Source: Pholiota molesta | Lineage: Eukaryota > Basidiomycota > Agaricomycetes > Agaricales > Strophariaceae | Reading direction: 5' to 3' | Length of the DNA stretch: 64,000 nt | NCBI GenBank assembly: GCA_014925825.1 | Contig: JACGCK010000199.1 | Span: forward strand, 17,887-81,886 | Shown here: piece after piece, positions 10,418 to 61,427 of the stretch | Position numbering within the stretch: position 1 is the stretch's first letter | How the letters are laid out: each line of letters begins with the position of its first letter | Notes under the pieces: generated by a model | The model's database searches: none | What the model was told of the DNA's origin: nothing | The model's input: only the letters and a program-made list of their open reading frames with translations | Translations under genes and position numbers: made by a program

Positions 10418-13400
10418 TTAATATCTTCTCCCAAGCCAGTCCGCCAGGTCCGCTGTCGAGTGCTACAGTGTATGATGTCAGCTTTGTCCCCACACTCGAG
10501 CGCAGACACGTACATCTATGTAGGCGCTCCTTTGAAGGATGGTGTCCAGCGCCTGTTCCAGTGACTCGTCATATTCAGACGTGTCCTTGTCCTATGCATC
10601 ATGCGTGTCAGTGGTCGAAATATAAAAGTATACACTATCACGCATATCTCTTACCTCGAAAAATGCTTTAACCGCCTCATAATCCTTTTCGCTCGAATAA
10701 TACTGTGTACAGTTCTATCCCTGTGTCAGCTGCCTAGTTCCTCAGCTATATATCTTTCGCTCACCTTCACAAGGTCGCCTAGGAGTTTAAAGTTGGCCTG
10801 CAGCCGCTCGTACAGCTGTAAATCGACGGCATATTTACATACGGTATAGACCTTCTGATTGACCTCAATGACACCTACCGTATCGTATTCTTCTTGTAAA
10901 TATTTCGTCAAGAGCCTCCGAGCTTTGATGTTAGAACCTAGATGAAAGGAAAGGTATACAATGTCCGGATCCTGCGCCTTGGTCGACATGTACCGAATCA
11001 TTTCCTCAAGAAGTGCTGGATCTTGCGAGGAAGCCAAACCACAACTAGCATTAACGTAATTCAGTCGCCGCCTGCTTCTAGTGTCTATTCAACGACTCAC
11101 ACAGCAGCCTTCTTCTCTTCCAGCGTCCTAGGATTGTCGTAGATTTTGACCACTGCATCGTACTCTGCGCGACCTCCGTATTTCACCGCCTTTGCAAGAC
11201 AAATAGATCAGCCTAACTCACAATTACTAAAATAATGATGTACACACTGCATAGAAAATAGTGCCTCGGATTTCGGCAGGAATCTTCGATTCGTCTCCAG
11301 TCTCGATGTAATATTTGAATCGACTCTGCAATTCTTTGATGACTCTATATAAGAAAAATTTACTACTTCATTACAAAAACAATATTGCAGATAAATTACT
11401 TACCCTTCAGCGCCTGAAATTGCAGCCTGTTCGATAGCAAGTATCCTCAAAGACGTTGTATCAAGTGATTCTTTTTCCGCGTGTTCATAGCCCAATTTTT
11501 CGATCAAAGGAACGAACAAATCCTATGGTGAGTCGATGTCAGGTCAACAATGAAGGCCAGTCAGCGCAGTCTGTCGCTGGAGCTAACTCACGCAACAGAA
11601 GACATTAAGCTTTTCCACGATTTCGGGATGCTCCCACCAGATAGAGAGTATATTTTCAATATAGCAGCCGATAGCCTGCCAGACCAAATCTACACAGAGA
11701 GGGCAAATATTAGTTAATCTGTAATTATGTTGTTGAAACAAAGGATGCCCACTTACTCTCTTTCTCATGCTTCCATAGATCGACCAGAGTCAAAACACTG
11801 CTGAGCTTTGCAAGTCCAGCTTGGGCGAGAGCGAATGCGTCGTATACTAGTCCCATCCTGTCATCCAAAGAGAATACAGAATCCTCTTTTGCTGCTTCAG
11901 CAGCGATCTTCGAAAGACGCTCGGGGGTATAGAGCACACGGACTGAAATTGATTGATAAAATATGTATAGAGAATAAGAGAATACTACGCACAAAGACCG
12001 GTAGTGCCCGCGTTTAACTTGTATGGCTTGCTAGTGTCGAGAGCGATTGTGATGTGACGCTCCAGGAGGATAGCCGTCGCATCCACAGACGACTTGCCGT
12101 CCCGAGTCGATAAGAGGCTCAAGGGAATATTCCTAAAGGCGTATAGTCAACATGACAACAGCATTGAAAAACAGCGATTGCCTACCAAATCGTCTCATTA
12201 TCCTCGGGATCTGCAGGGCCAGTCACTAGGAATCGATCTTGACGGACATGGATGCTATTTTCATTCTCAGTAACAGTGAGAACTGGGTATCCGACCTTCG
12301 TGATCCAGTTCTCTATAAGCAGGCTGATGTTAACACCCGTTGCTGTGCTGATATCTTCCCAAAGATCATGGGCGACGCCGTTCCCAAACGGCCTCTTCTT
12401 CAGATAGAGAGTAGCCCCATGCAGGAACCTCTCCTCGCCTACGTATTTAGAGAGCATGCGAAACACTAGATAGTCTTGTTGAATAGAATACGGCTAAAGA
12501 GCTAGTTTAGACTAACCTGAGGCTGTTTTGTGATGCAACAATAAGCCATAAATCTGTATCCATAAGTCAATACATTACACCAAAGGACCCATCAAGTTGG
12601 ATAAGAACCTCGGAGATGTCGGTGGCGTCAGGGCACTCAACCTCGATAGGATCTGAGGAGAGCGTAGAGTCCAAAGCCAGCGCTTTGTTAAGAATAACCA
12701 AGATGAATTCAGAGGTGTGACGCCCCAGTGGGAACATTCTGTAAACAGGAATCAGTATGGAGGAAACTGGAAAAGCGGATATATTTACTTGTCCATGATA
12801 AAATTGCCTATCTAATAAGTAATAGGTGTAAAAATGTGAACTCTTCAGACATATGATGTCGTGACATACCACACTCGCTACCCCTATGTAGGTATTACTT
12901 AATTGCCTTATTTTTTTAAGGACGAAAGTTCATACCGTGATTTAAGTACAGGTGATTCCACCATTCCACAGTGGTGGTGTTTCCAAACCTATAGAAGGGA
13001 GTCACGGTATGTTACGAGTTATGAAGCAAGACTACATACCACATGTGAGCTACTTGGTGACTCTGAACTTTAGCAACAAACCTCTTGTCTTCTTCTAGTT
13101 CGTCTACGCGGGAAGGATCAAGGAGCAGGTTATCCGAGTGGCCTGTGATCAGACCCCAGTTTGCCATTGCGCCTGTATAAAAATCCCTCGCCGCCTAGAA
13201 AGCGATCAGACAAATATCTGGGGGTTGGATCTTGATTGAATAAAACTCACAATGAGGGTGTCAAGCTTAGGAAGAGGATATTCGATGTTGAAGACTTTCT
13301 CGCAGAGAGGCAAAATAGCTGCCTTGACGTCAAGAGCGAATTGCGCCTGGTCGATAACATCAGAAGTCGCTGTAGCCCAAGTGAATGACGTGACAGTTCC

Positions 13401-14364
13401 TCTGCAGGAATTAATATCAACCCACCGTAAATGCGAAGGGGGACGACCTTTCCGCTCAAATGCATCACGACAGATGTCTCCAAAAATTCAAAGTGGCCGT
13501 TGGCAAACGCGACAATATAAGTCGACATTGGTGGAGTCGTTTCGAACTTGGTAATCTTCCATTTCTCGTGCTGAGTGGTTGGGACGATATCGGCAAGCTC
13601 GGAAGAGATGTTCCCACCAGGGTCGAGGACCTCTTCAGTAATAGCAGGCATGTTGCTCAGATTGACAGTATCCAAGCGCGAGATCATGGTAATCGAAAAT
13701 GTTGCCTTGAGAAGGGGCTCGTCCCAGCAAGGGAACGCGCGGCGAGCATAAGTAGGCTAAGATTGAAGAGATTGTTCAGATCGGTGGACCACTGCCGTAC
13801 AGATATAACAGAGGTCGGGTGGACGTACTTCAAAATGGGTGAGGACATAGTTCTGGGTCTTTCCGTCCTTCTCCCAAGAAGACCAGAAGTATCCTTCCGA
13901 GCTTTCGGTTAGCTTGCCTGAAAACACAATAATGAGCTCAGCCTTGGACTCTGCTGGGAGTGTATCGGCCAGTTGATATACAGTTCTATGTTGTTTTTCA
14001 TCAAAAGAGGCGAATATGGCAGGTTGTGCCGATTTGGAAGCATCAGAATAGATTGATCTAACAGAAATGGATATTATTTTAGAGTCAAAGAAGGATAGTT
14101 GTAAAGACACTTACGCTTTTCCGAGTTCTATCCCAGATGTATTGAGGGTGATCTTTGAGGTATTGTCCTTGACATCGAGACTAGAATGAAATGAAAAGTC
14201 AGTTTTGTAGTGTAGAAACAACATTGTGATACATACGTGACTTTGACTAAACCTTGGAATGTGAGTGCTTCAAGATCGGTCTTTATAGTGATATCATAGT
14301 GAGTGGCCTTGACGTTGGTTGGCAGTCGGTAGGGATCTTCAGTGGGTGCGACGGCGGTTGACAT
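10418..14364 (-). CDS. M1-family aminopeptidase homologue with the active site replaced (putative pseudoenzyme)
   Basis: Homologue of puromycin-sensitive/Ape2 aminopeptidases, in many short exons. Start MSTAVAPTEDPYRLPTNVKA at 14364. The N-terminal saddle domain is intact, with YARRAFPCWDEPLLKATF around 13.7 kb, and the gene ends in an ERAP1-C-like helical domain with the stop at 10418-10420. The thermolysin-like domain keeps its surroundings but not its catalytic residues. GAMEN reads GAMAN (13159-13173), HEXXH reads HQVAH (13045-13059), and the third zinc ligand in the LNEG motif is His (LNHG, codon 12937-12939). The segment expected to be SYSK reads LHHK, so the transition-state Tyr is probably lost. 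Splice sites and downstream frame look maintained, which argues for a retained non-peptidase role. Exon borders near 12.5-12.9 kb are my reconstruction. Confidence 0.85.
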
Positions 14365-38964: not shown

Positions 38965-40755
38965 TCAGGAGGAAGACATGGCAAAGAGCCACATGGAATT
39001 TCTGGTAAACGTTGGTATCGTTCGGGCCCAAGGAGCATGCTGCAACATCCAGCATATCGCCGACCTCAGGAAGGATACTAAAACATCGTCGCCAAATCCC
39101 GAGAGCGATGCTGGAGGAAATGATGGGCTATTGGTATTCTCCAACACAGAAGCGCCAAGAAATACGCTGCAAATGATACATTCGTCGATATATGGCTGAT
39201 AGTTGTGTTTATGTTCCAGAATGGGACACCACATCTCTAGTGGTACCAACAAAAATACCTTCCATTAGAGTAAAACCAAAATTTTACGATCTAATTACTT
39301 ACTTGGATATATTTTATGCTTGCTTCAGCAACTGTTCTTCTTGCGGCTACGGCTATTGGAAATTCTGGAGGCCAGGGCTCGCCGCTGCCATATTGTACGG
39401 CTTGCTCGAGGAGAAAATGAGCCAGGTCCAAGTCTATCGAAGCATTTTCGAGTATGTTTGGGAACCAGGAAAGCTTTGGGTCAAGCAGTCGAATCCGCGT
39501 GTTTGAAGGAAAACCCTCTCCTAGGTAACGTTTGTCTTCCTTATTGATCTTCTCAAAGCTAAATCGATAATTCCCTGTAACAGTCCTGCAAAGCGGAACG
39601 AGTAAGCACTCAATGACGAAATATCTAAGTAACAGTTTGACTTACTTGGAGCACAGTACACTGACTATTGCCTTAGCCAATGCCGCATAGCTTCCACTGT
39701 CTACAAAGTATTTTCCGGCTCTGTATTCGTCCTGGAGCAAGTTATTTACAAATAATTTCCCTTCGTCGTCATAAATGGCGTTGACTACGCCCAATAACCG
39801 TTCGTCCAGCTGGCGGAGATCATGAAGTTCCTTTGCTGACCTACTAACAGCATGAAGTAAAATATCGAAGATATCGGTAGGCGCACAATCACGCGTGAAT
39901 AATCGTAGAAGAATAGGAATGAAAGTCCGGAATGGTGAAGGATATTGTGAGATGGTATCCAAGATGAATCCATCGAACTCGTTCCGTAATCGAGGGAAAA
40001 TATCATCCCGGTCTCCTCCCTACCAATAAATTAGTTCGTTGTATTGATTGCAATTTTTTCAACTCACTTGCTGTTTTATGCACTCAAAGAAAGCAGTCCA
40101 GTTCGGTCTATACAGATCCACATCTAAGTTTGAAATCCCTTCCAAGCCCGCCCTTAGATTAAGATGTGCCAGGTTGTCAGCTATTTCTTTGCTAGGTTCA
40201 AAATCTTTGTGATGGTAGATAAAGGCCGATATTGGAAGTGATAAGTAGGTATACTGCGAATGTCGAGACCGAGGACGACTGGAAATGACTTTCAACCAGC
40301 ACCGGCGGAGGCTAGCATGTCCTTGATTTGCGTCGATGTGATATTCGAGTGATCGCGATGGGTCTATTAGGAAGTCGTATAGTGAGGCATGATGGATGCG
40401 TAGCACGTCGAAATCTGAATCTCTATATCTAGCGTGACGGTTTCCGCGTTTACGAGGTCTCTCGCTGACCGGCGGTGGAACAAACACAAGGGCATGCATA
40501 TCTACCAAAACTCTGCGGACGTCGAAGCCCAACAACTCCTCAACCAGATCAACAGTTAGGTCTGAGCTGTATTTACCTGATAGCAAGAGCACCGTCAAAA
40601 CCTCGAGGACCTTTCGAACATCAGCTACGGAGGCCAGAATATGGCGGTATAATGCGTCCAGGAGCGCGAAAGGTGTTTCGTTTCCGGCACTGGATAAACC
40701 CAAGATGATGTTTAGCCGGTCTGCAGGGCTAAAACGAGGGGAATCAATGAATTTC

Positions 40756-40760
40756 GTAAC
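40756..40760. repeat. Target-site duplication, left copy (GTAAC)
   Basis: GTAAC directly precedes the 5' LTR and is repeated directly after the 3' LTR at 46742-46746. A 5-bp duplication is the size Ty3-type integrases make. Confidence 0.93.
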
Positions 40761-40942
40761 TGTCATGATACACGTGACTCATTCCCTCTTTACATTCCGT
40801 AGAGTACACTTTTCCCTCTTTACTTTTGACCACTTCGTTCTTAGGTACGTTCGTTTGTACATTCGACGACTACGTACATCTATACACTTCGTTCTTAGCG
40901 TCTGTCGGTCCCGCGTTGCGCCATCTCGCCAGCACCCTAACA
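40761..40942 (+). repeat. 5' LTR of the chromovirus (182 bp)
   Basis: Starts TGTCATGATACACGTG and ends AGCACCCTAACA; identical by eye to 46560-46741. Short for an LTR but within the range of fungal chromoviruses. It contains repeated TTCCCTCTTTAC and CTTCGTTCTTAG words that may be transcription signals. Confidence 0.95.
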
Positions 40943-40944
40943 CT

Positions 40945-40957
40945 TGGTCAAAAGTCT
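40945..40957 (+). promoter_or_regulatory. Primer-binding site for minus-strand synthesis
   Basis: TGGTCAAAAGTCT begins two bases after the 5' LTR. The leading TGG would pair with a tRNA CCA end. The tRNA identity is not determined; Tf1-style self-priming is the alternative. Confidence 0.5.
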
Positions 40958-41004
40958 CAAACACACGAAAATTTTTTTCGCACCTCGGAGACTCTCGGAA
41001 TCCC

Positions 41005-42216
41005 ATGGACAGCGAGCCTGCACAGCAGCAACACCTGCCCCCGGCTTCAGTGGTGCAGCAGGGGGCCTCGGTGACCTCGCCTCCTCGCCCCGAGCCGCTG
41101 GCTCCCGAAATACTTGCTATTGGCCGGGTTGTCTTCGATCAGGTCAAGGCGCAGTTTAGCGCTCAGTTTGCCGAGCTCCAAACGGACCTGGGTGATGCGC
41201 TTCATCGCGAGGCTCGGTCTAGCGCCCAGTTGGCTGAGCTCCGGACACAGTTGGGTGATGCACTTCGTCGTGTGGCCGTCTTGGAGACCGAGTTGCAAAG
41301 CACCCAGGCACATGTAGCGCGTGGTATTGCTTCTCATGCCCCGAAAGTCTCGCCACCAGCCAAGTTTGATGGAAAGCCGCCGAAAGACCTTGCCGACCAG
41401 TTCGTTCGCCAGATCTCGAATGCAGCCCTGTTCGAGAACTTCGTGAGCGATGAACAGAAGATTCTGTGGGCGGAGTCTTTCCTTACCGGGCAGGCATTCA
41501 GTTGGTCCTCAACTCTTACGGCCCACGGCGATCGCGACTCCAATCCGGCTCGGTTTGTTTGGGCGGAGTGGATTCGCCTGTTCAAGGAGACATTCTGTAC
41601 ACGCGATGCAGCCGCGGAAGCGCTTCGGAAGCTCTCGGTCCTTGTACAGGGGTCAAAGTCCATTACTCAGTACTGCACGGAGTTTAAGGAGCTCACCGTC
41701 AAGCTTGCAGCTGCGGACCAGGGGAGCGAGTTTGTGAAGGAGAGGTTTTGGGCAGGGTTGAACGTGACTGCGAAGGAGGCCTTGGTGAATACCGACTATC
41801 GCACGGTTGACGAGGCTCAGGACATTCTGCTCCGTCGTGAAGCGAGGTTGGCGGATATTGAGGCAGCCAAGCGCCAAGGGAAACAGGCGGGCTCGCAGAA
41901 CTCCGGCACTAAGCCAGCAGTGCCTGCGCGTCCCGTGGGCAACCAGTCAGCCGCCTTGCCGGCAGCGGTGAAATCGAATCCGCCGGCTTCGAAGGACCCG
42001 AATGCGATGGATGTGGATGCGGCGAAGCGTGGGTCTGGGCGTTCGCGGCGGACATGCTTTGCTTGTGGTGGTGAAGGTCATTTCGCGGTGGACTGCCCCA
42101 CGTATGCAGCATCTTTGAAGGCGGCGCTGGTGAAGGAAGTTCTGGCTATGCAGCAGGCGGCGTCGGGCTCTGGTTCGTCGCCTTCTTTGGAAGAGCCTGG
42201 GAAGGGTTTTTCTTAG
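41005..42216 (+). CDS. gag: Chromovirus Gag polyprotein
   Basis: 403 aa from MDSEPAQQQHLPPASVV. A coiled-coil N-terminus (residues about 40-100) and a retrotransposon-Gag capsid region (KFDGKPPKDLADQF, WAESFLTGQAFSW, LFKETFC, QYCTEFKELTVKLA) are followed by one zinc knuckle, CFACGGEGHFAVDC (CX2CX4HX4C). It packages the element RNA in cytoplasmic particles. The stop TAG lies 11 bases before the pol ATG, in another frame, so Pol is expressed by reinitiation or frame change. Confidence 0.93.
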   Translation: MDSEPAQQQHLPPASVVQQGASVTSPPRPEPLAPEILAIGRVVFDQVKAQFSAQFAELQTDLGDALHREARSSAQLAELRTQLGDALRRVAVLETELQSTQAHVARGIASHAPKVSPPAKFDGKPPKDLADQFVRQISNAALFENFVSDEQKILWAESFLTGQAFSWSSTLTAHGDRDSNPARFVWAEWIRLFKETFCTRDAAAEALRKLSVLVQGSKSITQYCTEFKELTVKLAAADQGSEFVKERFWAGLNVTAKEALVNTDYRTVDEAQDILLRREARLADIEAAKRQGKQAGSQNSGTKPAVPARPVGNQSAALPAAVKSNPPASKDPNAMDVDAAKRGSGRSRRTCFACGGEGHFAVDCPTYAASLKAALVKEVLAMQQAASGSGSSPSLEEPGKGFS

Positions 42217-42227
42217 GACTGCCTCGT

Positions 42228-45200
42228 ATGGTCGCACCGAGTGCAGTCAACAGATTCTCTGTATTGGCCCCAACTAGTAATCAGACACTTTTGCTTGGTC
42301 CAGATGAAGAACGACACCTACGTAAGCGACGACGGCGACGGCGCAGGCGTGTCGCAGTTATTCATGCGCGGGCACCTCATTCTCCATTTTCGTCCTTCGA
42401 GATTCCGATTACTATCCACATACAGGATCCTGCGGCTCTTCTTCAACTTCGCATTGTGGTCTCCCTTGCAATGCTCGATTCCGGGGCAAGTTGTTGCTTT
42501 ATCCACCCCCGCTTTGTGGAGATGCACAATTTGCCTGTTATCAAGAAAAAGCGCGGACTGCGTCTGCGCACTGTCGATAATTCTGAGGTTAGGTCTGGCC
42601 TTATCACACATGAGGTCCACCTACGAATATATATTGGCGATCACTCTGAGGTATTGGTCTTCGAGGTCGCTGATATTGGTGATGACAATATGATTCTTGG
42701 CTTGAACTGGCTGCGGCGTCACAATCCGGCGATCGATTGGGAACGGTCTTTGCTGGATTTCCACTCCGCCTTCTGTCGCGAACATTGTTTGCCTGCTTCG
42801 GCGCCTACGGGGCGGGGTGCGGCAGCTGTGGTGTCAGCACCACATGGTGGGCCACGCTGTCCGCCTCGGAAGTCTGTCCTGGAGCGTGCTCGGCGCGAGG
42901 CGCGCAGGCTTGCGGCGGCGTTGAAGAGGGGGGAGGAGGTCGTGTCTGCAGCTGATTTGGAGAGATCGAGGCTGCTGGATAGGTCAGTGGGACCTTCTGT
43001 GGTGCCGCGTGTTGCGCGTGCACGGAAGACGAACCGGAGTGGGAGTGGGCAGCGTGTGCGGGCACCTCGTGAGGCCTTTGCGTCACTGAAGCGGTCCCGG
43101 ACAGGCCGGAATCAGTTGCTGCGAGGGCAGCGTGCTGAGGCTGTTCGTGTGGCAAAATTGGCGATCGACGAGGCGATTCTCGCGCAGGAGAGTGTAGCGG
43201 GGCCAAGTGATGGGGGTCGGCGATCTTCGTGGATGTTCGAGCAGAGGTGGGATGGCGAGTCGGTGTATAGTGTGCGAGGGCCGGAGATTAGGGGGGCGGC
43301 TGGGCGGTCATTTGCACAGGAGCTGGCTGAGGAGGCGGCACAGAGGGAGGTGAAGCCAGAGAAGTCTGTGGAGGAGATGGTGCCGGAGGAGTTCCATGAA
43401 TTCTTGGACGTGTTCGACAAGAAACGGTCCGAGCGTCTTCCACCACACCGCCCGCACGACCTCGCGATTGATCTGGAAGGGGATGTTCTGCCGCCTACTG
43501 GGAAGTTGTACCAGCTGGCTCCGGCGGAGCTTCGGGCGCTGCGGGAGTTCATTGACGAGAACCTGAAGAAAGGCTACATTCGTCCTTCTAAGGCACCATG
43601 CGGGGCTCCGGTGTTTTTCGTGAAGAAAAAGGATGGTTCGTTGCGCTTGGTGGTGGATTTTCGGGCACTCAACGCCATTACGCGCCCAGATTCCTATCCT
43701 ATTCCATTGACATCCGAGCTTCTGGACAGGCTGAAGGCTGCGAAGGTGTTTACGACACTGGACATGCGCTGGGGGTACTATAACGTCCGCATCCGCGAAG
43801 GCGACGAGTGGAAGACGTCCTTCCGCACGCGCTACGGCCAGTTCGAGTTCTTGGTAATGCAGTTCGGGCTTCGTAATGCACCTGCGGCTTTTCAGCGGAT
43901 GGTTAATGACCTATTCCATGATCTGGTGGATGTTTATGTTGTGCTTTACCTGGATGACATAATTATCTTCTCTGAGGACCCCAACCAGCATGAGGCGCAC
44001 GTCAAGGAGGTTTTGCGGCGCTTGCGCGAGGCCGATCTGTACCTCAAGCCCGAGAAGTGCTCCTTCCGGACGACATCAGTCGACTACTTGGGCTTGAAGA
44101 TAACGCCCGGGCACATTGGCATGGACCCCGTCAAGATTAGTGGTGTTACAGACTGGCCAGTTCCACAGTCAGTGCGCCACGTGAACCAGTTTCTGGGTTT
44201 CTGCAACTTCTATCGTCGATTTGTGGAGGATTACGCGCGAATTACGAGGCCGTTGGAGAGGCTGAAGCGGAAGGATGTTGCGTGGCGGTGGGGTGCGGCA
44301 GAACAGGGGGCGTTTGAGGGGTTGAAGACGGCGTTTGTGGAGGCACCGATATTGATGATGCCGGATATGGAGGCGCCCTTCCGGGTTGAGACTGATGCCT
44401 CGGACTTCGCGATGGGTGCTATCCTGTCTCAGCGTGATGCGTCTGGCGATTGGAGGCCGGTGGCCTACTTTTCGAAGGCTATGCAGCCTGCCGAGCGGAA
44501 CTACGACATCTACGACAAGGAATTGTTAGCAATCGTTCGCGCACTGGAAGCTTGGCGGCCTTACCTCGAGGGGAACCCACATCAGGTGGAGATCTTCTCT
44601 GACCACAGGAATCTGGAGTTCTTCATGACGGCGAAGGATTTGAATCGTCGTCAGGCGCGGTGGAGCCTCTTTCTCAATCGCTTCAATTTCGTGATACGCC
44701 ATCGTCCTGGGCGCTTAAGCGCCGGACCGGACGAGTTGTCGCGACGTGCCGATCATGAGGTGCCGGCTGGTGAACGCGACAATGGGGGTGTACAGGTGCT
44801 CCCTCCCAGCCGAGTTGCGAAGCAGGTTGAGTCAGGTGGCGATGAGGAGGTACGGCGAGTGCGGCGGGCGGTTGTTGTGGATTGGAGACAATGCGGGGAG
44901 TCGGAGGTGGTGGCTAGGGTGGGGCAGGTGGTCCCTAATGATGCGGCGATCTTGCAGCGGGTTCGCGTGGCGTCGAAGAAGGATCCTCGCCTGGATGTGA
45001 TGTGGGATCTGGCGGCGGCGCCGGCCTCCGTGCGCTCGCGCTTGAAGGACTTTGTGGTTGACGACGGGGTGGTTCGCTTCCGTGGGTTGGTCTATGTGCC
45101 CAATGACGACGAAATCAAACGCCAGGTGCTTCGGCTGTACCATGATTCCATCCCAGCAGGGCACCCTGGGCGGGCCAATACCTTGGCACTTATTGCGCGG

Positions 45201-46427
45201 AACTACTACTGGCCGCGTATGTCCGAGTTCGTCAACCGCTACGTCGATGGCTGCGAAACTTGTCAGCGTACGAAGCCGCGTCGGAGGAAGCCTCACGGGC
45301 CTCTGCAGCCACTGGAGGTTCCAGATGGGCCGTGGCAGCACATCTCGACGGATTTCGTCGGGCCTCTTCCGCTGTGCAGGGGGTACGATATGGTGCAGGT
45401 GGTTTGCGACAAGTCGACGAAGCGTGCGCATTTTATTCCAGCTCGTCAGGCGGACAGTGCAGTGGACGCGTGTGATCGGTATATTGAGAGGGTGTGGTGT
45501 TTGCATGGGACGCCGAAGAAGATCATCAGCGACCGGGACCCGAAATTCATAGCGGCGTATACCAGGCGGTTGTGGGAGCGTATGGGCATCAAGCGCGCTC
45601 TTTCGACAGCGCATCATCCTGAAACTGATGGTCAGACGGAGCGGGCTAACCAGGAACTGGAGATTTACCTGCGCGCGTACGTCGATTACTACCAAGACGA
45701 CTGGGTGGACTGGCTGCCGTTCGCCGAATTTTCGTACAACAATCGCGTTAATTCGTCCATTGGCATGTCGCCGTTTTACGCCGAGTACGGGTACAACCCG
45801 ACATTCTCCATCGATCCTGTTAACTCGCAGTCAGTTCCGAAGGCGGATGAGAGGCTAGATCGCATACACGAGGTCCAGGAGGAGCTGAAGGTGTTGTTGG
45901 AGTTAGCGGCGGAGAGGATGAAGCGCTTCCATGATGCGTGGGTGGATGAATCGCCCGATTTCGTCGTTGGCGACCGTGTCTTTTTGGAACGTGCAGATTT
46001 GCGCTCGACGCGCCCGAGTCACAAGCTGGATTTCCGGCGCTTCGGGCCCTTCAGGATTGCGCAGAAATTGTCCGACACCGCGTACCGCCTGGAGTTGCCT
46101 GATGGGTGGTCGATTCATAATGTGTTCCATGTTTCCTGCCTGATTCCTGTGAATGAGGACACGATTGTCGGCCGTCGCCAAGAGCCGCCCCCGCCTATTG
46201 TGGTCGAAGGGAGCGAGGAGGTCGAAATCGAGCGCATATTGAAGGAACGGCGCTCGAGGGGTGGTGTGGCCGAATTTTTGGTCCGCTGGAAGGGCTACGA
46301 TGAGAGCGAGGACGAATGGATTAAGGAGTATGATATGGGGCACGCGCGTGAGGCGGTTGAAGAGTTTAGGGCGAACGAGGCGGCGAGGGGGAAGAGTAAG
46401 AGGCGACGGCATGGTGGGGGAGCGTAG
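42228..46427 (+). CDS. pol: Chromovirus Pol polyprotein: PR-RT-RH-IN-chromodomain
   Basis: 1399 aa, uninterrupted. Aspartic protease LDSGASCCF near residue 85; an Arg-rich linker; reverse transcriptase with VVDFRALNAIT, QFGLRNAPAAFQ and catalytic YLDDIIIF; RNase H with VETDASDFAMGA; integrase with an H2C2 zinc finger (HPGRANTL...CETCQRTK) and a DDE core (STDFVG, SDRDPKF, TDGQTERANQ). The C-terminal chromodomain reads FLVRWKGYDESEDEWI. The ATG at 42228 is the first in frame after gag. The protein copies the RNA and integrates the cDNA; the chromodomain should bind methylated histone H3. Confidence 0.95.
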   Translation: MVAPSAVNRFSVLAPTSNQTLLLGPDEERHLRKRRRRRRRRVAVIHARAPHSPFSSFEIPITIHIQDPAALLQLRIVVSLAMLDSGASCCFIHPRFVEMHNLPVIKKKRGLRLRTVDNSEVRSGLITHEVHLRIYIGDHSEVLVFEVADIGDDNMILGLNWLRRHNPAIDWERSLLDFHSAFCREHCLPASAPTGRGAAAVVSAPHGGPRCPPRKSVLERARREARRLAAALKRGEEVVSAADLERSRLLDRSVGPSVVPRVARARKTNRSGSGQRVRAPREAFASLKRSRTGRNQLLRGQRAEAVRVAKLAIDEAILAQESVAGPSDGGRRSSWMFEQRWDGESVYSVRGPEIRGAAGRSFAQELAEEAAQREVKPEKSVEEMVPEEFHEFLDVFDKKRSERLPPHRPHDLAIDLEGDVLPPTGKLYQLAPAELRALREFIDENLKKGYIRPSKAPCGAPVFFVKKKDGSLRLVVDFRALNAITRPDSYPIPLTSELLDRLKAAKVFTTLDMRWGYYNVRIREGDEWKTSFRTRYGQFEFLVMQFGLRNAPAAFQRMVNDLFHDLVDVYVVLYLDDIIIFSEDPNQHEAHVKEVLRRLREADLYLKPEKCSFRTTSVDYLGLKITPGHIGMDPVKISGVTDWPVPQSVRHVNQFLGFCNFYRRFVEDYARITRPLERLKRKDVAWRWGAAEQGAFEGLKTAFVEAPILMMPDMEAPFRVETDASDFAMGAILSQRDASGDWRPVAYFSKAMQPAERNYDIYDKELLAIVRALEAWRPYLEGNPHQVEIFSDHRNLEFFMTAKDLNRRQARWSLFLNRFNFVIRHRPGRLSAGPDELSRRADHEVPAGERDNGGVQVLPPSRVAKQVESGGDEEVRRVRRAVVVDWRQCGESEVVARVGQVVPNDAAILQRVRVASKKDPRLDVMWDLAAAPASVRSRLKDFVVDDGVVRFRGLVYVPNDDEIKRQVLRLYHDSIPAGHPGRANTLALIARNYYWPRMSEFVNRYVDGCETCQRTKPRRRKPHGPLQPLEVPDGPWQHISTDFVGPLPLCRGYDMVQVVCDKSTKRAHFIPARQADSAVDACDRYIERVWCLHGTPKKIISDRDPKFIAAYTRRLWERMGIKRALSTAHHPETDGQTERANQELEIYLRAYVDYYQDDWVDWLPFAEFSYNNRVNSSIGMSPFYAEYGYNPTFSIDPVNSQSVPKADERLDRIHEVQEELKVLLELAAERMKRFHDAWVDESPDFVVGDRVFLERADLRSTRPSHKLDFRRFGPFRIAQKLSDTAYRLELPDGWSIHNVFHVSCLIPVNEDTIVGRRQEPPPPIVVEGSEEVEIERILKERRSRGGVAEFLVRWKGYDESEDEWIKEYDMGHAREAVEEFRANEAARGKSKRRRHGGGA

Positions 46428-46559: not shown

Positions 46560-46741
46560 TGTCATGATACACGTGACTCATTCCCTCTTTACATTCCGTA
46601 GAGTACACTTTTCCCTCTTTACTTTTGACCACTTCGTTCTTAGGTACGTTCGTTTGTACATTCGACGACTACGTACATCTATACACTTCGTTCTTAGCGT
46701 CTGTCGGTCCCGCGTTGCGCCATCTCGCCAGCACCCTAACA
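46560..46741 (+). repeat. 3' LTR of the chromovirus (182 bp)
   Basis: Same sequence as 40761-40942 by eye. Followed at once by the second GTAAC target copy (46742-46746). Confidence 0.95.
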
Positions 46742-47828
46742 GTAACCGTCGCTGCGAAAATAAACTGGCCAGAGGCTTTCAGAACGAGAAGATCGACATC
46801 GCTTTGAGCTGGCCAGGGCGATGGGAGACGACTCCCTAGCCGTAAGTGTTTGTTGTGGATTTCTTGAAAAATGTCGTTAAAAAAGAGCCTGATGTCTTCA
46901 TCTGGCATATAGTTGTGGTCTAGGACAAGCCGTTTGACAAGAGGCCGGAGATGGTTCCCAAGAAACGCCTCGCGAATTTCATATTCTGGGCGGCTAGCGA
47001 GAAGGATGATGAAGGGAATATGCTGCAGCTCTGACATTGCTGTGGCTAGTATGTTCAAAATGTCGGCCTGCGATCGGAAATCGGGTCCACATTCGTCAAT
47101 GCCATCTACGAGTAAGAAAATTGGCCTGAGAAAGGATGGGGCTGCTTTGAGAGGTTCAATCACAAGCACTCGGATTTGGGTGGAAAGAGAGCGAGAGAAG
47201 ATTGTTGGATCCTGTTCAATTGCCGTGAACAAGTTATCTTCAATCTGAGGGACAGATCGCGAGAGTTGGTAGGCAAGAGTTGCAATGAAGCGAGTGGTAT
47301 CGTTACGCCCAGCGGCGGTGCGTGAGAAGAAGAAAGACGCAGCAAGGAGGCCTTCCCGTTCGCACTCCTCGGCAATGCTCTGCGCGATGGCCGTCTTTCC
47401 AGCACCGGCTGGGCCATACATCCAAAGAATCAATTTACGCATGGATTTTGGGGCTTTGATCCATTCCATGATTTCTGCACGGATGGCTTTTCGAGTATGT
47501 GGGTGGCACCGAGGCGGATCTCCTCGTTCGGCAGCGTTGTGGAAAGCACCTTTGGCGATATTCTCCAGAAGAATTTGTAAACCTACACACGCAACGTTTG
47601 ATATTCAAGCTTTGAGTTGGCACAGCTAAAACAAGTGATATGCTCACCATAGCGTTCCCTATTAGAAGAAGTCACGTTGGTGAATGTTCCACCTAAGATG
47701 ACGGGGTTCTTAGCATTGGGAAACATATGCAAGCCCCCTTGGGGTGGCATGTCGGGTGAGATGGAGGGGCAGTTTGAGGTGAAAGTCAACAGGACGATTT
47801 CCTTTGACGTACCAAATATGTAGGCCAT

Positions 47829-55077: not shown

Positions 55078-57301
55078 ATGGAGAAGTCCATCTCGATTGA
55101 GAAAGCCGCTAGAATCCCATCTGGTGTGTGCGATAAAGGCAAGTTAATGATAGAACTACTCTCGCACCTGCTCTTTACCATTTAACTCATCGTCGACTTT
55201 TGAACCTTCAGACTATAGTCCAATGTTTTCTTCCGGTATGTTGTATTATGCGCTATTCAATGGATCCGACTGTGACCTACTAATGCCTTGACAGATCCCA
55301 ATACCCAAGCTCGCACTTTGTTAGTTCAGACGATGCACAACTTACTTCTGCCCTCAATTCAAACAACCGGCGGACGGGCCACAAAAGGTATATGATCTTA
55401 ACACTACAATTAATATGAGTCTAATAACTTCTTCTCAATCTCCTCAGATTCGAATCCATCCACAACTCATTTGCGGAATAAAGCAGAGGAGTTCGTTTGC
55501 GCACTGGAGAGTTTCATATCCGGCATGATATCTAGTGCTCAACCGGGTAGCAGAGATATCGGTATCGACGTTACGTTTTCAGGTGGGGTTTCCGCTTGCG
55601 GGCTGCAATCTAAAGCTGCTAACAATGAGTGGATGGCGTAGATGTACAGTCGGATGATGACTTGGAAGGTGTCTATCCACATGAATAAATGGACCATAAT
55701 GCTCCGAACTGACCCCGGGAATGCAGCAGCAGAAGGGAAAGCAAGAATTGATGGCGTCTCAAATGAGAACAAACACTCTGGACACCCCTTTAATCTGTCG
55801 GTACCTCGTGGTCTGATCGTTCAACGTGAACAAGGAGGTGAGAAAGAACGCGAGCTTGCTTTCATCTAATGCCAAGTTACTCAATGACCATTGTCAATTC
55901 AGGCAATACGCTACTATGCCCAGTGCGTCCAGTGGCCTTGGATGCATTGAACAACCACCTGGCAAGATTGCGCCGCGATACTCAGGCGAAGGAAATGCCT
56001 ATACGTCTACTGTGCTATGAATCGCATAATTCGAAGCCGAGAATCTCTCTTCTAAGAAAGGGCGACATTTATCCCTATCTCGCCCGCAGACTCGAAGCTG
56101 ATTTTCGCACCTCGCACAACCCTCTTCGGCAAGAGCCTCTCTGGGGGGATAGGTGGATCAAACGACATGCTGGATATGCCATCCTATCAAATCGCTGGAC
56201 CGACAAACCCGGCGAGTTGACTTACAGCGACTGGAAAAAAGGCTCCGTTGACATCGAGAATGCAAAATGCCAGAAACTTGTCAATTTCTGCAAAGCCGCC
56301 TGGGAAAACCACGGACTTACTCTTGGTTGGATTGATACAGTCTGCATCAACAAGGAGAGCAGCGCCGAGCTCGACGAATCGATCCGCTCCATGTATGCGT
56401 GGTACGCCAATTCTGACATCTGCATCACCTATCTCGCCGGGACCGAAAGTCTTGTGGACATGCATAACGACCTTTGGTTTCGTCGCGGATGGACGTTCCA
56501 GGAGTTGCTCGCGCCTAATTGCGTCAAATTCTACAACAAGCACTGGATGAGGCTTAGTCCTAAAGACTCGAACGATCTTTCGCAAAGCGCCAAGGAGCTT
56601 GGACCACAACGCAGGCTGTCTCTCTTCGGGAGTGACAAGGAGGATCCCTCAATTCTCAAGGTCATTCACCGTGCCACGACGATTACGCCGGATGAGCTAC
56701 AGATATTAGGGCCACACCCATCTCGCGCAGGATGCAGTTAGCGGCCAAGCGCGAAGTGACGCGGAAAGAAGATATTGCATACTCATTGATGGGCATCTTC
56801 GACGTCAGCATATCCACCGCGTATGGCGAGGGTCCCGAACGCGCATTCTATCGCCTAGTGAAGGAGATATTTGACTCTACGAAGGACGTTTCCGATATCT
56901 TCAACTGGGGAGGCCGCCGTACTTTCTCATCCGATGCCCCTTGGACGCCGATCACCTCTTTATTTCCATCCGGGCCATCAGATTTTGAATCGCGCTCCTC
57001 GAGGATGTATCCGTGGCATCCTATAGAGCCACTAACCCTTACGCACGTAGGGTTGCGCACGCCGATCCTGCTCATGCCTGTGCTTGCGTTGTTGCGAAGT
57101 GCCCAATCAATGGATTTACATGCAATTGGAGACTACTACGCCACGGTAGCGATCCCTGGACGTGCGGTGGACGTGCGGCGGCCACGAAAGAACCGTCAGC
57201 CCATTGTCGAATTTCCTGATATTGATACGTGCTATGCCCTGGCGAAGAGGGTTTTTCATCCTGAGTTGAAGGAGGTAATATTCGGGACATTGGGGGTATA
57301 G
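55078..57301 (+). CDS. HET-domain protein with micro-exon N-terminus; one frame break
   Basis: HET domains act in fungal vegetative incompatibility and programmed cell death. Seven exons: 55078-55123, 55212-55235, 55295-55387, 55448-55582, 55642-55668, 55730-55837, 55903-57301. All six introns interrupt codons after the first base; the first four junctions and exon 5 code Asp. Exons 2 and 5 are only 24 and 27 nt. The HET core reads HAGYAILSNRW, LGWIDTVCINKESSAELDESI and SMYAWYANSDICITYLAG, then RRGWTFQELLAP. The C-terminal KEDIAYSLMGIFDVSISTAYGEG block lies in another frame; one extra G in the run 56709-56711 joins them, giving 611 codons. No NACHT or repeat domain is attached. Confidence 0.8.
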
Positions 57302-58990: not shown

Positions 58991-61427
58991 GCGCTGAGCG
59001 AGTGAGCGGCCAGCGCGGCGGCGTGAATTTACAGCGCGGCGGTGTAATTTGGGCTCGGGAATCGATTCGGAGCACGGCTAGATGAGTTAGAGCGCGGCGA
59101 GACAAGCTGGAGTGCTGGGAGACAAATTGTGAATTGGATACGGCTCGGCGCGGCGAGACGACAGCGGGCGCGGCGAGACGAACTGGAGCACGGCGAGACG
59201 AACTGGAGCACGGCAAGACGACTGCAGGTGCGGCGCGGCGATCTGGGGTGTGGCCAGTTGAATGTACGTGCGGCGAGACAACCTGAACTTCTGAGAGACG
59301 TCCTAAAGCACGGCGAGACGACAGCGGGTGCGGCGAGACGAACTGCGGCGCGACGAGACGAACTAGAGCCTGGGAAATTAAATGCGCGCGCGGCGAGACG
59401 TCCTGGAACGCGGCGAGATGACCTAGAGCGCGACGAGACAACCTGTGGTCTGGCGAGTTGAATCCACGTGCGGCGAGACGACTGCGGGCGCGAAGAGACG
59501 AATAGGGCACGGGGAATTAAATGCAGCCGCGGCGAGACATCCTGAGCGCGGCGAGACGACTTGGAACGCGGTGTGACGACTTGGAGCTTGACGAGACGAC
59601 TTGGGGCGCGACGAGACGAAGTACCGTGTGGCGAGACGAACTACGGTGCAACGAGATGAACCAGAGCTTGTGGAATTAAAATTTGAGCGCGGCGAGACGT
59701 CCTGGGGCGCAACGAATTGAATATACGTTCTGCTCTACGAATGCAAGCGCGGCGGAGACCGGACCAACGGGCGAATATTCATACTACTGTACGGATGCGG
59801 GTGCAGCGGACCAAAGCTAGCGCGGCGAGACGAATTGGAGCGCAGTAAATGGAATACGGGTGCGGCGAGTTGTCCTGAAGCGCGGCGAGTTGAATATACA
59901 TGCGGCGAGACGACTTGAAACGCGGTGTGGCGACTTGGAGCTTGACGAGAGGACTCGAGGCGCGACGAGACGAAGTACCATGCGGTGAGACGAACTACGG
60001 TGCGACGAGATGAACCAGAGCATGGTGGAATACATTAAGGCGCGGCGAGACGCATGGGACGCGGTGAGACAACCTGAAGCGCGGCGAGACGACGCAGGGC
60101 GGCGCGGCGAACTGGGTTGCAGTTAATGTACGGCGGCGAGACAACCTAAATTGAGAGACGTCTTAAAGCACGCGAGACACAGCGGGTGCGGCGAGACGAA
60201 CTGCGGGCGCGACGAGACGAACTAGAGCCTGGGAAATTGAATGCGCGTGCGGCGAGACGACCTGAAGAGCTGGGAGACGTCTTGAAGTGTGGCGAGATGA
60301 CAGCGGGTGCGGCGACTTGAATATGTCCTGTGAATTGCGGCTGGACGAGCTGCGGCGCGACGAGACGAACTAGGCATGGGGAATCAAATACAGGCGCGGC
60401 GAGACAATCTCGAGCGCAGTCAGTTGACTTTAAGCCCGGCGAAATGGATACGGTGCGGTGACGAGCTGGGGCGCGACGAGATGCCTTGGGACGCGACGAG
60501 ACGACCTGGAACGTGACGAGACGAAGTACAGTGCGACGAAATGAACTAGAGCACGATGAATCTAATTCGGGCGCGGCGGGCGAGTTGAATATATGTCATG
60601 CTGTACGAATGCAAGCGCGGCGAGACGACAACGGCCGCGGCGGGCGCGGTGGACTAAAGCTAGTGCGGCGAGACGAATTGGAGCGCAGAAAATTGAATTC
60701 GGACGCGGCGAGATGCCCTGGAGTGTGGCGAGACGAAAGCAGGCGCGGCGAGACGGACTGGAGTGCTGCTGTACGGATCCGAGCGCGGCGAGACGCCCTA
60801 GAGTGCGACGAGACGACGTGGGGTCCGGCGAGGCGTACTGACGTGCGGCGAGACCATCTGGAGCACGGTAAATTGAATCCAGGCACGGCGAGACGACTTG
60901 GGGCGCGACGAGACGAAGTACTGTGTGGCAAGACGAACTATAGTGCGACGAGATGAACTAGAGCACAAGGAATCAAATGCGGCGCGGCGAGACGTCCTGG
61001 GGCTTGGCGAATTCCATATACGTCCTGCTGTACGAATGCAAGCGCGGCTAGACGACAGCGGGCGGCGCGGCGATCTGGGGCGCGGCGAATTGAATCCAGG
61101 CACAACGAGACAACCTAGAACGCGGCGAGACGACTTGGGGCGTGACGAGACGAACTGGAGCGCCGTGAATTGAATATGGCGCGGCGAGACGCCTTGAGCG
61201 CGACGAGATGACTGGATGTGCATGCTGCTGTACGGATCCGAGCGCGGCGAGATGCCCTAGAGCGCGATGAGATGTCCTGAAGTGCGGCGAGATGAACTAA
61301 GGCGCGGCGAATCCAATTGGGGCACGGTAAATTAATTAGGGGCGCGACGAGCTGAATATACGTGCTGTGGAGCGTGGCAAGACAATCCTGAGCGCAGCCA
61401 GTTGACGTTAAGCCCGGCGGAATGGAC
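58991..61427. repeat. Minisatellite array of a degenerate 20-bp unit, about 2.4 kb
   Basis: The unit is close to GACGACYTGGAGCGCGGCGA. Clean consecutive copies show the 20-bp spacing, for example at about 59175-59215. About 120 copies fit, with substitutions, indels and interspersed variants such as AATTAAATGC. Longer blocks recur (GCTGTACGAATGCAAGCGCGGC near 59737, 60600 and 61028; TGCTGTACGGATCCGAGCGC near 60768 and 61224), suggesting higher-order duplication. Because 20 is not a multiple of 3, the Arg-rich ORFs through it are artefacts. Confidence 0.88.

Follow-up and report, generated by a model that had tools for sequence, protein, structure and literature searches.

A gene of the basidiomycete Pholiota molesta encodes a protein of peptidase family M1 that has lost all of its main catalytic residues and is probably a pseudoenzyme with a remodelled pocket kept by selection, most likely to hold peptides, nascent chains or partner proteins uncut. 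The gene lies on the minus strand of the window, the 64,000-nucleotide stretch of DNA that we analysed (contig C111, bases 17887–81886; genome of 65.6 Mb in 625 contigs). Its ATG is at 14364 and its TAA ends at 10418, exactly the limits given in an earlier note on this DNA. The exon model was fitted by eye, guided by homology to paralogues and independently of transcripts. It gives a coding sequence of 2694 nt (897 aa) without internal stops, interrupted by 22 introns of 50–72 nt that all have GT-AG borders, which bears out the earlier description of a long, cleanly spliced and open gene. The models of two paralogues (C444 and C604), fitted by the same procedure, also have 23 exons, in matching order and of similar lengths. 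The main parts of the gene are as follows, with nucleotide differences counted against a second haplotype.

10418..14364, minus strand: whole gene from ATG to stop, 23 exons, encoding an 897-aa M1-type protein
13426..14364, minus strand: exons 1–4, M1 N-terminal domain (PF17900) and the beginning of the next part; E141 retained
13040..13194, minus strand: exon 6, GAMEN replaced by GAMAN (A302) and HEXXH by HQVAH (H337, Q338, H341); haplotype differences at 0 of 155 nt
12936..12988, minus strand: exon 7, third metal ligand Glu replaced by His (LNHG, H360); haplotype differences at 0 of 53 nt
12870..12883, minus strand: exon 8 (14 nt), GFATL replaced by GVASV, the conserved Phe becoming Val362
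12609..12738, minus strand: exon 10, SSHP replaced by SSDP, the conserved His becoming Asp402; haplotype differences at 2 of 130 nt
12517..12553, minus strand: exon 11, IFDxLSYSK replaced by IYGLLLHHK, the catalytic Tyr becoming His423, followed by His424; haplotype differences at 0 of 37 nt
10418..12465, minus strand: exons 12–23, end of the catalytic domain, linker and ERAP1_C-like domain (PF11838, residues 559–875)

The window also contains a Ty3-type retrotransposon (40438–46424) with long gag and pol frames, chromodomain included, an ORF for a NACHT domain (NPHP3_N-like) on the minus strand (46675–47604) and, on the plus strand, one for a HET domain (55842–56735). Degenerate tandem arrays at 59011–61310 have a unit of about 20 bp and are rich in GCGACGAGACGA-like sequence, and a AACTTCGTTTAAACGAACA-like tandem repeat with a 19/57-bp period occupies positions 327–515.

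Three Pfam profiles match the protein above their cut-offs: Peptidase_M1_N (PF17900, residues 21–222, E 1.2e-44), Peptidase_M1 (PF01433, E 1.8e-52) and ERAP1_C (PF11838, E 3.9e-78). Judged by these profiles, the protein is a member of family M1 by descent. The solved structure nearest by sequence is puromycin-sensitive aminopeptidase (PSA; PDB 8sw0 and 9o5k), which has the same domains and aligns over residues 7–893 (E 2.4e-129). According to the accessible part of a PSA study, Glu353 serves as the general base, Glu375 binds zinc, Glu319 holds the substrate N-terminus, Glu180 is a second Glu near that N-terminus and Tyr438 stabilises the transition state (PMC10343166). The spacing of positions 341, 360 and 423 in the window protein equals that of positions 356, 375 and 438 in PSA, so that the roles of the PSA residues can be assigned to the fungal positions. 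PSA retains Glu319, Glu353, Glu375 and Tyr438, as reported in the same excerpt (PMC10343166), whereas the window protein replaces all four.

The motifs GAMAN, HQVAH and LNHG read by the earlier note are all present, and its statement that every main catalytic residue is replaced turned out stronger than it had been put: the position of the catalytic Tyr (PSA Tyr438), absent from that note, is also a His (H423). In place of the HEXXH-X18-E, GAMEN and transition-state Tyr of an active M1 aminopeptidase, the protein has HQVAH-X18-H, GAMAN and H423. All 79 prokaryotic homologues compared have Glu at positions 302, 338 and 360 and Tyr at 423, in a set biased to PSA-like proteins by the patterns used to gather it (AFPCWDE and H[QE]VAHMW); 80 of 540 relatives were fetched and one (L107) was dropped for a mismatched longest ORF. 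The same residues are found in the canonical paralogues of the P. molesta genome (C444, C604 and C532), which also conserve positions changed in the window gene by F362V, H402D, F418Y, D419G and M350V, among others. E141, which aligns with PSA Glu180, is retained.

The effect of such replacements is known from related enzymes. In PSA, the accessible text reports that Tyr438Phe lowers kcat 1000-fold (PMC10343166). The replacement of the HEXXH Glu by Gln abolishes the activity of endopeptidase-24.15 and, as an unpublished result, that of ACE, according to the part of the source available (PMC1925091). By analogy with these mutants, we infer that the window protein would have lost its activity. 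The loss of peptidase chemistry that the earlier note proposed is thus well supported by the sequence, the four chemistry and anchor residues all being replaced. That the protein is still an M1 aminopeptidase with an unusual chemistry would agree with its retained domain set and E141, but we regard this as very improbable because the general base, the third ligand, the Glu for the N-terminus and the Tyr, each kept in 79 of 79 homologues, are gone.

Two of the four replaced residues (E302, E338, E360 and Y423) became His while H337 and H341 were kept, a combination that brings up a different use of the site. A three-His metal site, as the earlier note had suggested, is possible by spacing (341–360 and 360–423 match 356–375 and 375–438 of PSA), and would have four His if H423 were included; the comparison of the three-His site with carbonic anhydrase is speculation. 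H337, H341 and H360 would then bind the metal, and H423 could be a fourth ligand or an acid-base residue, in line with the position of PSA Tyr438 at the place of thermolysin His231 in the portion of the PSA study available (PMC10343166). The lack of haplotype differences in exons 6, 7 and 11 agrees with such a site. However, with 21 of 30 conserved active-site columns retained, the survival of both His of the HxxxH motif is not unusual; taken alone it says nothing for a metal, and we discarded it as uninformative. The neighbouring shell is altered too (D419G, F362V and H402D), which speaks against the new metal centre. We therefore consider it unlikely, if worth keeping in view, that a gluzincin site was rebuilt as a His-rich metal centre and then frozen by selection for a new, non-peptidase function. 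If this were true, the new function might be a metal-dependent reaction, metal sensing or storage, or metal-gated peptide holding.

The four replacements recur on contig C31 (L021), whose copy has no coding indels and no internal stops. C31 is colinear with positions 1843–33210 of the window (28.5 kb aligned; main blocks 93.7–95.9% identical, smaller ones 80–98%), a colinearity that points to C111 and C31 being two haplotypes, with a segmental duplication as the alternative. The replacements are common to both copies whether C31 carries an allele or a segmental duplicate. The same substitutions on C31 are also a strong argument against miscalled bases. Frame breaks do occur elsewhere in the assembly, in two exons of C444 and near the end of C532, yet those are length changes, whereas the replacements in the window gene are substitutions, several of them at two bases, on two contigs. 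With C111 and C31 in agreement we rejected an assembly or base-calling error, to which we give a negligible probability. The C31 allele has CAA for the final TAA, with a stop codon directly after it, and two of its introns have GC donors, one of them in a context that is weak in our judgement.

A six-frame search of the genome, scoring the best candidates only, found at least five PSA-type loci (the window gene, C31, C444 and the pair C604 and C532) and one fragment beside C444. The second, canonical M1 copy for which the earlier note had recommended a search is thus present as C444 and as the C604/C532 pair, which is 95% identical and is taken as a haplotype pair. C444 is the closest canonical paralogue of the window gene, with 72–78% DNA identity in aligned blocks and 66–80% protein identity, depending on the domain. 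The two frame breaks of the C444 locus (L022, C444:387500–393500) may be real or sequencing errors, and the fragment downstream of the gene (about 655–963 of the locus, C444:388154–388462) is a partial copy of the C-terminal exons with internal stops. C604 and C532 (L023 and L024), canonical in other respects, carry RFQ at a QFE motif whose Q and E are shared by 79 of 79 prokaryotic homologues and whose F occurs in 74. In this pair, Gln thus takes the place of the N-domain Glu that lies near the substrate N-terminus, and the specificity of the pair may differ. We also identified a gene on C223 with the motifs HEATH and LNEG, which we take to be LTA4H-like. A separate gene on C112 is TAF2, with Taf2 as its best match in the PDB (E 3.6e-48). 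TAF2, a subunit of TFIID, shares the M1-like fold, and HEXXH is absent from the stretch of C112 that was read. However, the window protein is nearest to canonical C444 and to PSA, and we rejected an identity with TAF2.

The canonical paralogues allowed the changes to be placed by lineage, with C604/C532 as the outgroup. In the active-site segments (74 columns picked by us around known motifs), 17 amino-acid changes fell in the window lineage vs none in C444, compared to 77 vs 44 in the rest of the protein (Fisher p=0.0014). A plain tally of altered conserved columns showed no significant active-site enrichment (p=0.12); limited to columns also kept in C604/C532, it gave p=0.04. Codon models over 881 of 902 alignment columns gave a stem omega of 1.02 in the active-site segments and 0.46 elsewhere, with background values of 0.044 and 0.102, respectively. 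The active-site value is not above 1 (p=0.96 against 1), and positive selection on the stem was thus not shown; within the catalytic domain as a whole the stem omega is 0.74, not different from 1 (p=0.40). Relaxed constraint accounts for the active-site change on the stem as well as adaptation does. For the dN/dS check that the earlier note had proposed, the omega of the whole gene on the stem is 0.34–0.50, depending on the model, vs 0.095–0.149 for the remaining branches, and, where it was tested, lies below 1 (2dlnL 9.76, p=0.002). Furthermore, about 25 stops were expected on the stem under a neutral estimate and none was found.

Divergence between the haplotypes (one genome, two haplotypes, 54 coding differences) describes the more recent history. 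Exons differ at about half the rate of introns (54 of 2694 vs 55 of 1253 positions, p=4e-5). The catalytic exons 5–11 differ at 2 of 531 positions vs 11 of 429 in their own introns (p=0.004), and the remaining exons at 52 of 2163. The catalytic domain has one nonsynonymous and three synonymous codon differences. At the local intron rate, 12.0 nonsynonymous and 4.5 synonymous nucleotide changes are expected there, so that nonsynonymous change is depleted (P=8e-5) and the synonymous count fits expectation. For comparison, the catalytic domains of C604 and C532 differ by 9 nonsynonymous and 11 synonymous codons. Omega between the haplotypes is 0.07 in the catalytic domain (p=0.0001 vs 1), 0.21 in the active-site segments (p=0.049) and 0.72 outside the catalytic domain. 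This codon-model test assumes a shared neutral rate, and the local intron rate yields the same result. For the whole gene omega is 0.56, borderline against 1 (p=0.044 and 0.047) and no different from the 0.40 of the canonical C604/C532 pair (p=0.35). The counts outside the catalytic domain, 14 nonsynonymous and 5 synonymous codons in residues 1–261 and 14 of each in residues 483–897, indicate that constraint there is weak. The selection for another role suggested by the earlier note therefore stands for the catalytic domain, is borderline for the whole gene and is weak outside that domain.

These figures also bear on whether the gene is an enzyme copy that lost its function recently and is drifting before any breakage becomes visible. 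Its raised branch omega, the stem omega of about 1 in the active site, the haplotype omega of 0.72 outside the catalytic domain and the two GC donors of C31 would all agree with drift. Against it, constraint between haplotypes is strongest in the catalytic domain, and exon divergence is about half that of introns. The disabling mutations sought elsewhere in the gene, another check proposed earlier, were not found: internal stops and coding indels are absent from both haplotypes, with 4.2 stops expected between them (P=0.015). In addition, codons 360, 362, 419 and 424 are changed at two or more bases relative to every canonical copy (codons 302 and 423 at two bases relative to C444 and at one relative to C604), so that the replacement is more than a single recent hit. 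We rejected a pseudogene on the open frame, the splice sites and the haplotype constraint, weak as the latter is outside the catalytic domain, and hold recent loss with drift to be a doubtful explanation. The frame is open with the catalytic residues lost, and selection after that loss is seen in the catalytic domain across the two haplotypes. A stem omega near 1 in the active-site segments followed by low values between haplotypes indicates that constraint was lost in the active site and returned afterwards. Change followed by such a freeze is better explained by a dead pocket put to new use than by decay.

Pseudoenzymes comparable to the window gene are already known, among them Tma108, ACE3 and TAF2. 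Tma108 of Saccharomyces cerevisiae is likewise a fungal M1 protein, a nascent-chain binder with a pocket thought to bind and not to cut; as far as the accessible part of a 2024 review of pseudometallopeptidases describes it, Tma108 retains HExxHx18E and departs from the active site at a single residue (PMC11266112). Unlike Tma108, the window protein lacks the general base, the third ligand, the GAMEN Glu and the Tyr. The available text of the review gives Tma108, with its zinc motif retained, as the one M1 case (PMC11266112), and an Aspergillus niger degradome study, in the portion available, assigns a single canonical motif to its three M1 proteins (PMC7804941). Zincin pseudoenzymes of other families, as described in excerpts of the sources, include ACE3 (M2) with HQMGH (PMC1925091), Gone early (M13) with all key positions replaced and ADAM7 (M12) with HQLGHNLGMQH, in which Gln stands for the base and three His are left (PMC11266112). 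The third His of ADAM7 comes from the metzincin motif, whereas in the window protein a His replaced the Glu ligand. A fungal M1 protein with a fully replaced site is not named in the listed titles and abstract openings of the literature on M1 pseudoenzymes and fungal M1 proteins that was covered, which leaves most subscription journals outside.

Glu-to-Gln mutants of such enzymes serve as substrate traps, and HQxxH resembles this laboratory mutation. Because HQxxH kills activity in related enzymes and such mutants trap their substrates, a holding or binding role is favoured for the pseudoenzyme, as proposed for Tma108; by analogy, we infer that it binds. A PSA-type M1 aminopeptidase gene would have been duplicated, and one copy would have lost the general base, the GAMEN Glu, the Glu of the third metal ligand and the transition-state Tyr, its active site taking an excess of the change. 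The M1 domain set and the open frame would have been kept, and the catalytic domain would now be under purifying selection. The peptide channel may still be used to hold a peptide, nascent chain or protein partner without cleavage; alternatively, the protein could associate with the active paralogue, or compete with it, without itself cutting. The canonical sister genes within the same genome offer a ready comparison. With all main catalytic residues gone, change focused on the active site and constraint between the present haplotypes strongest in the catalytic domain, the pattern is the one expected where a dead active site became useful.
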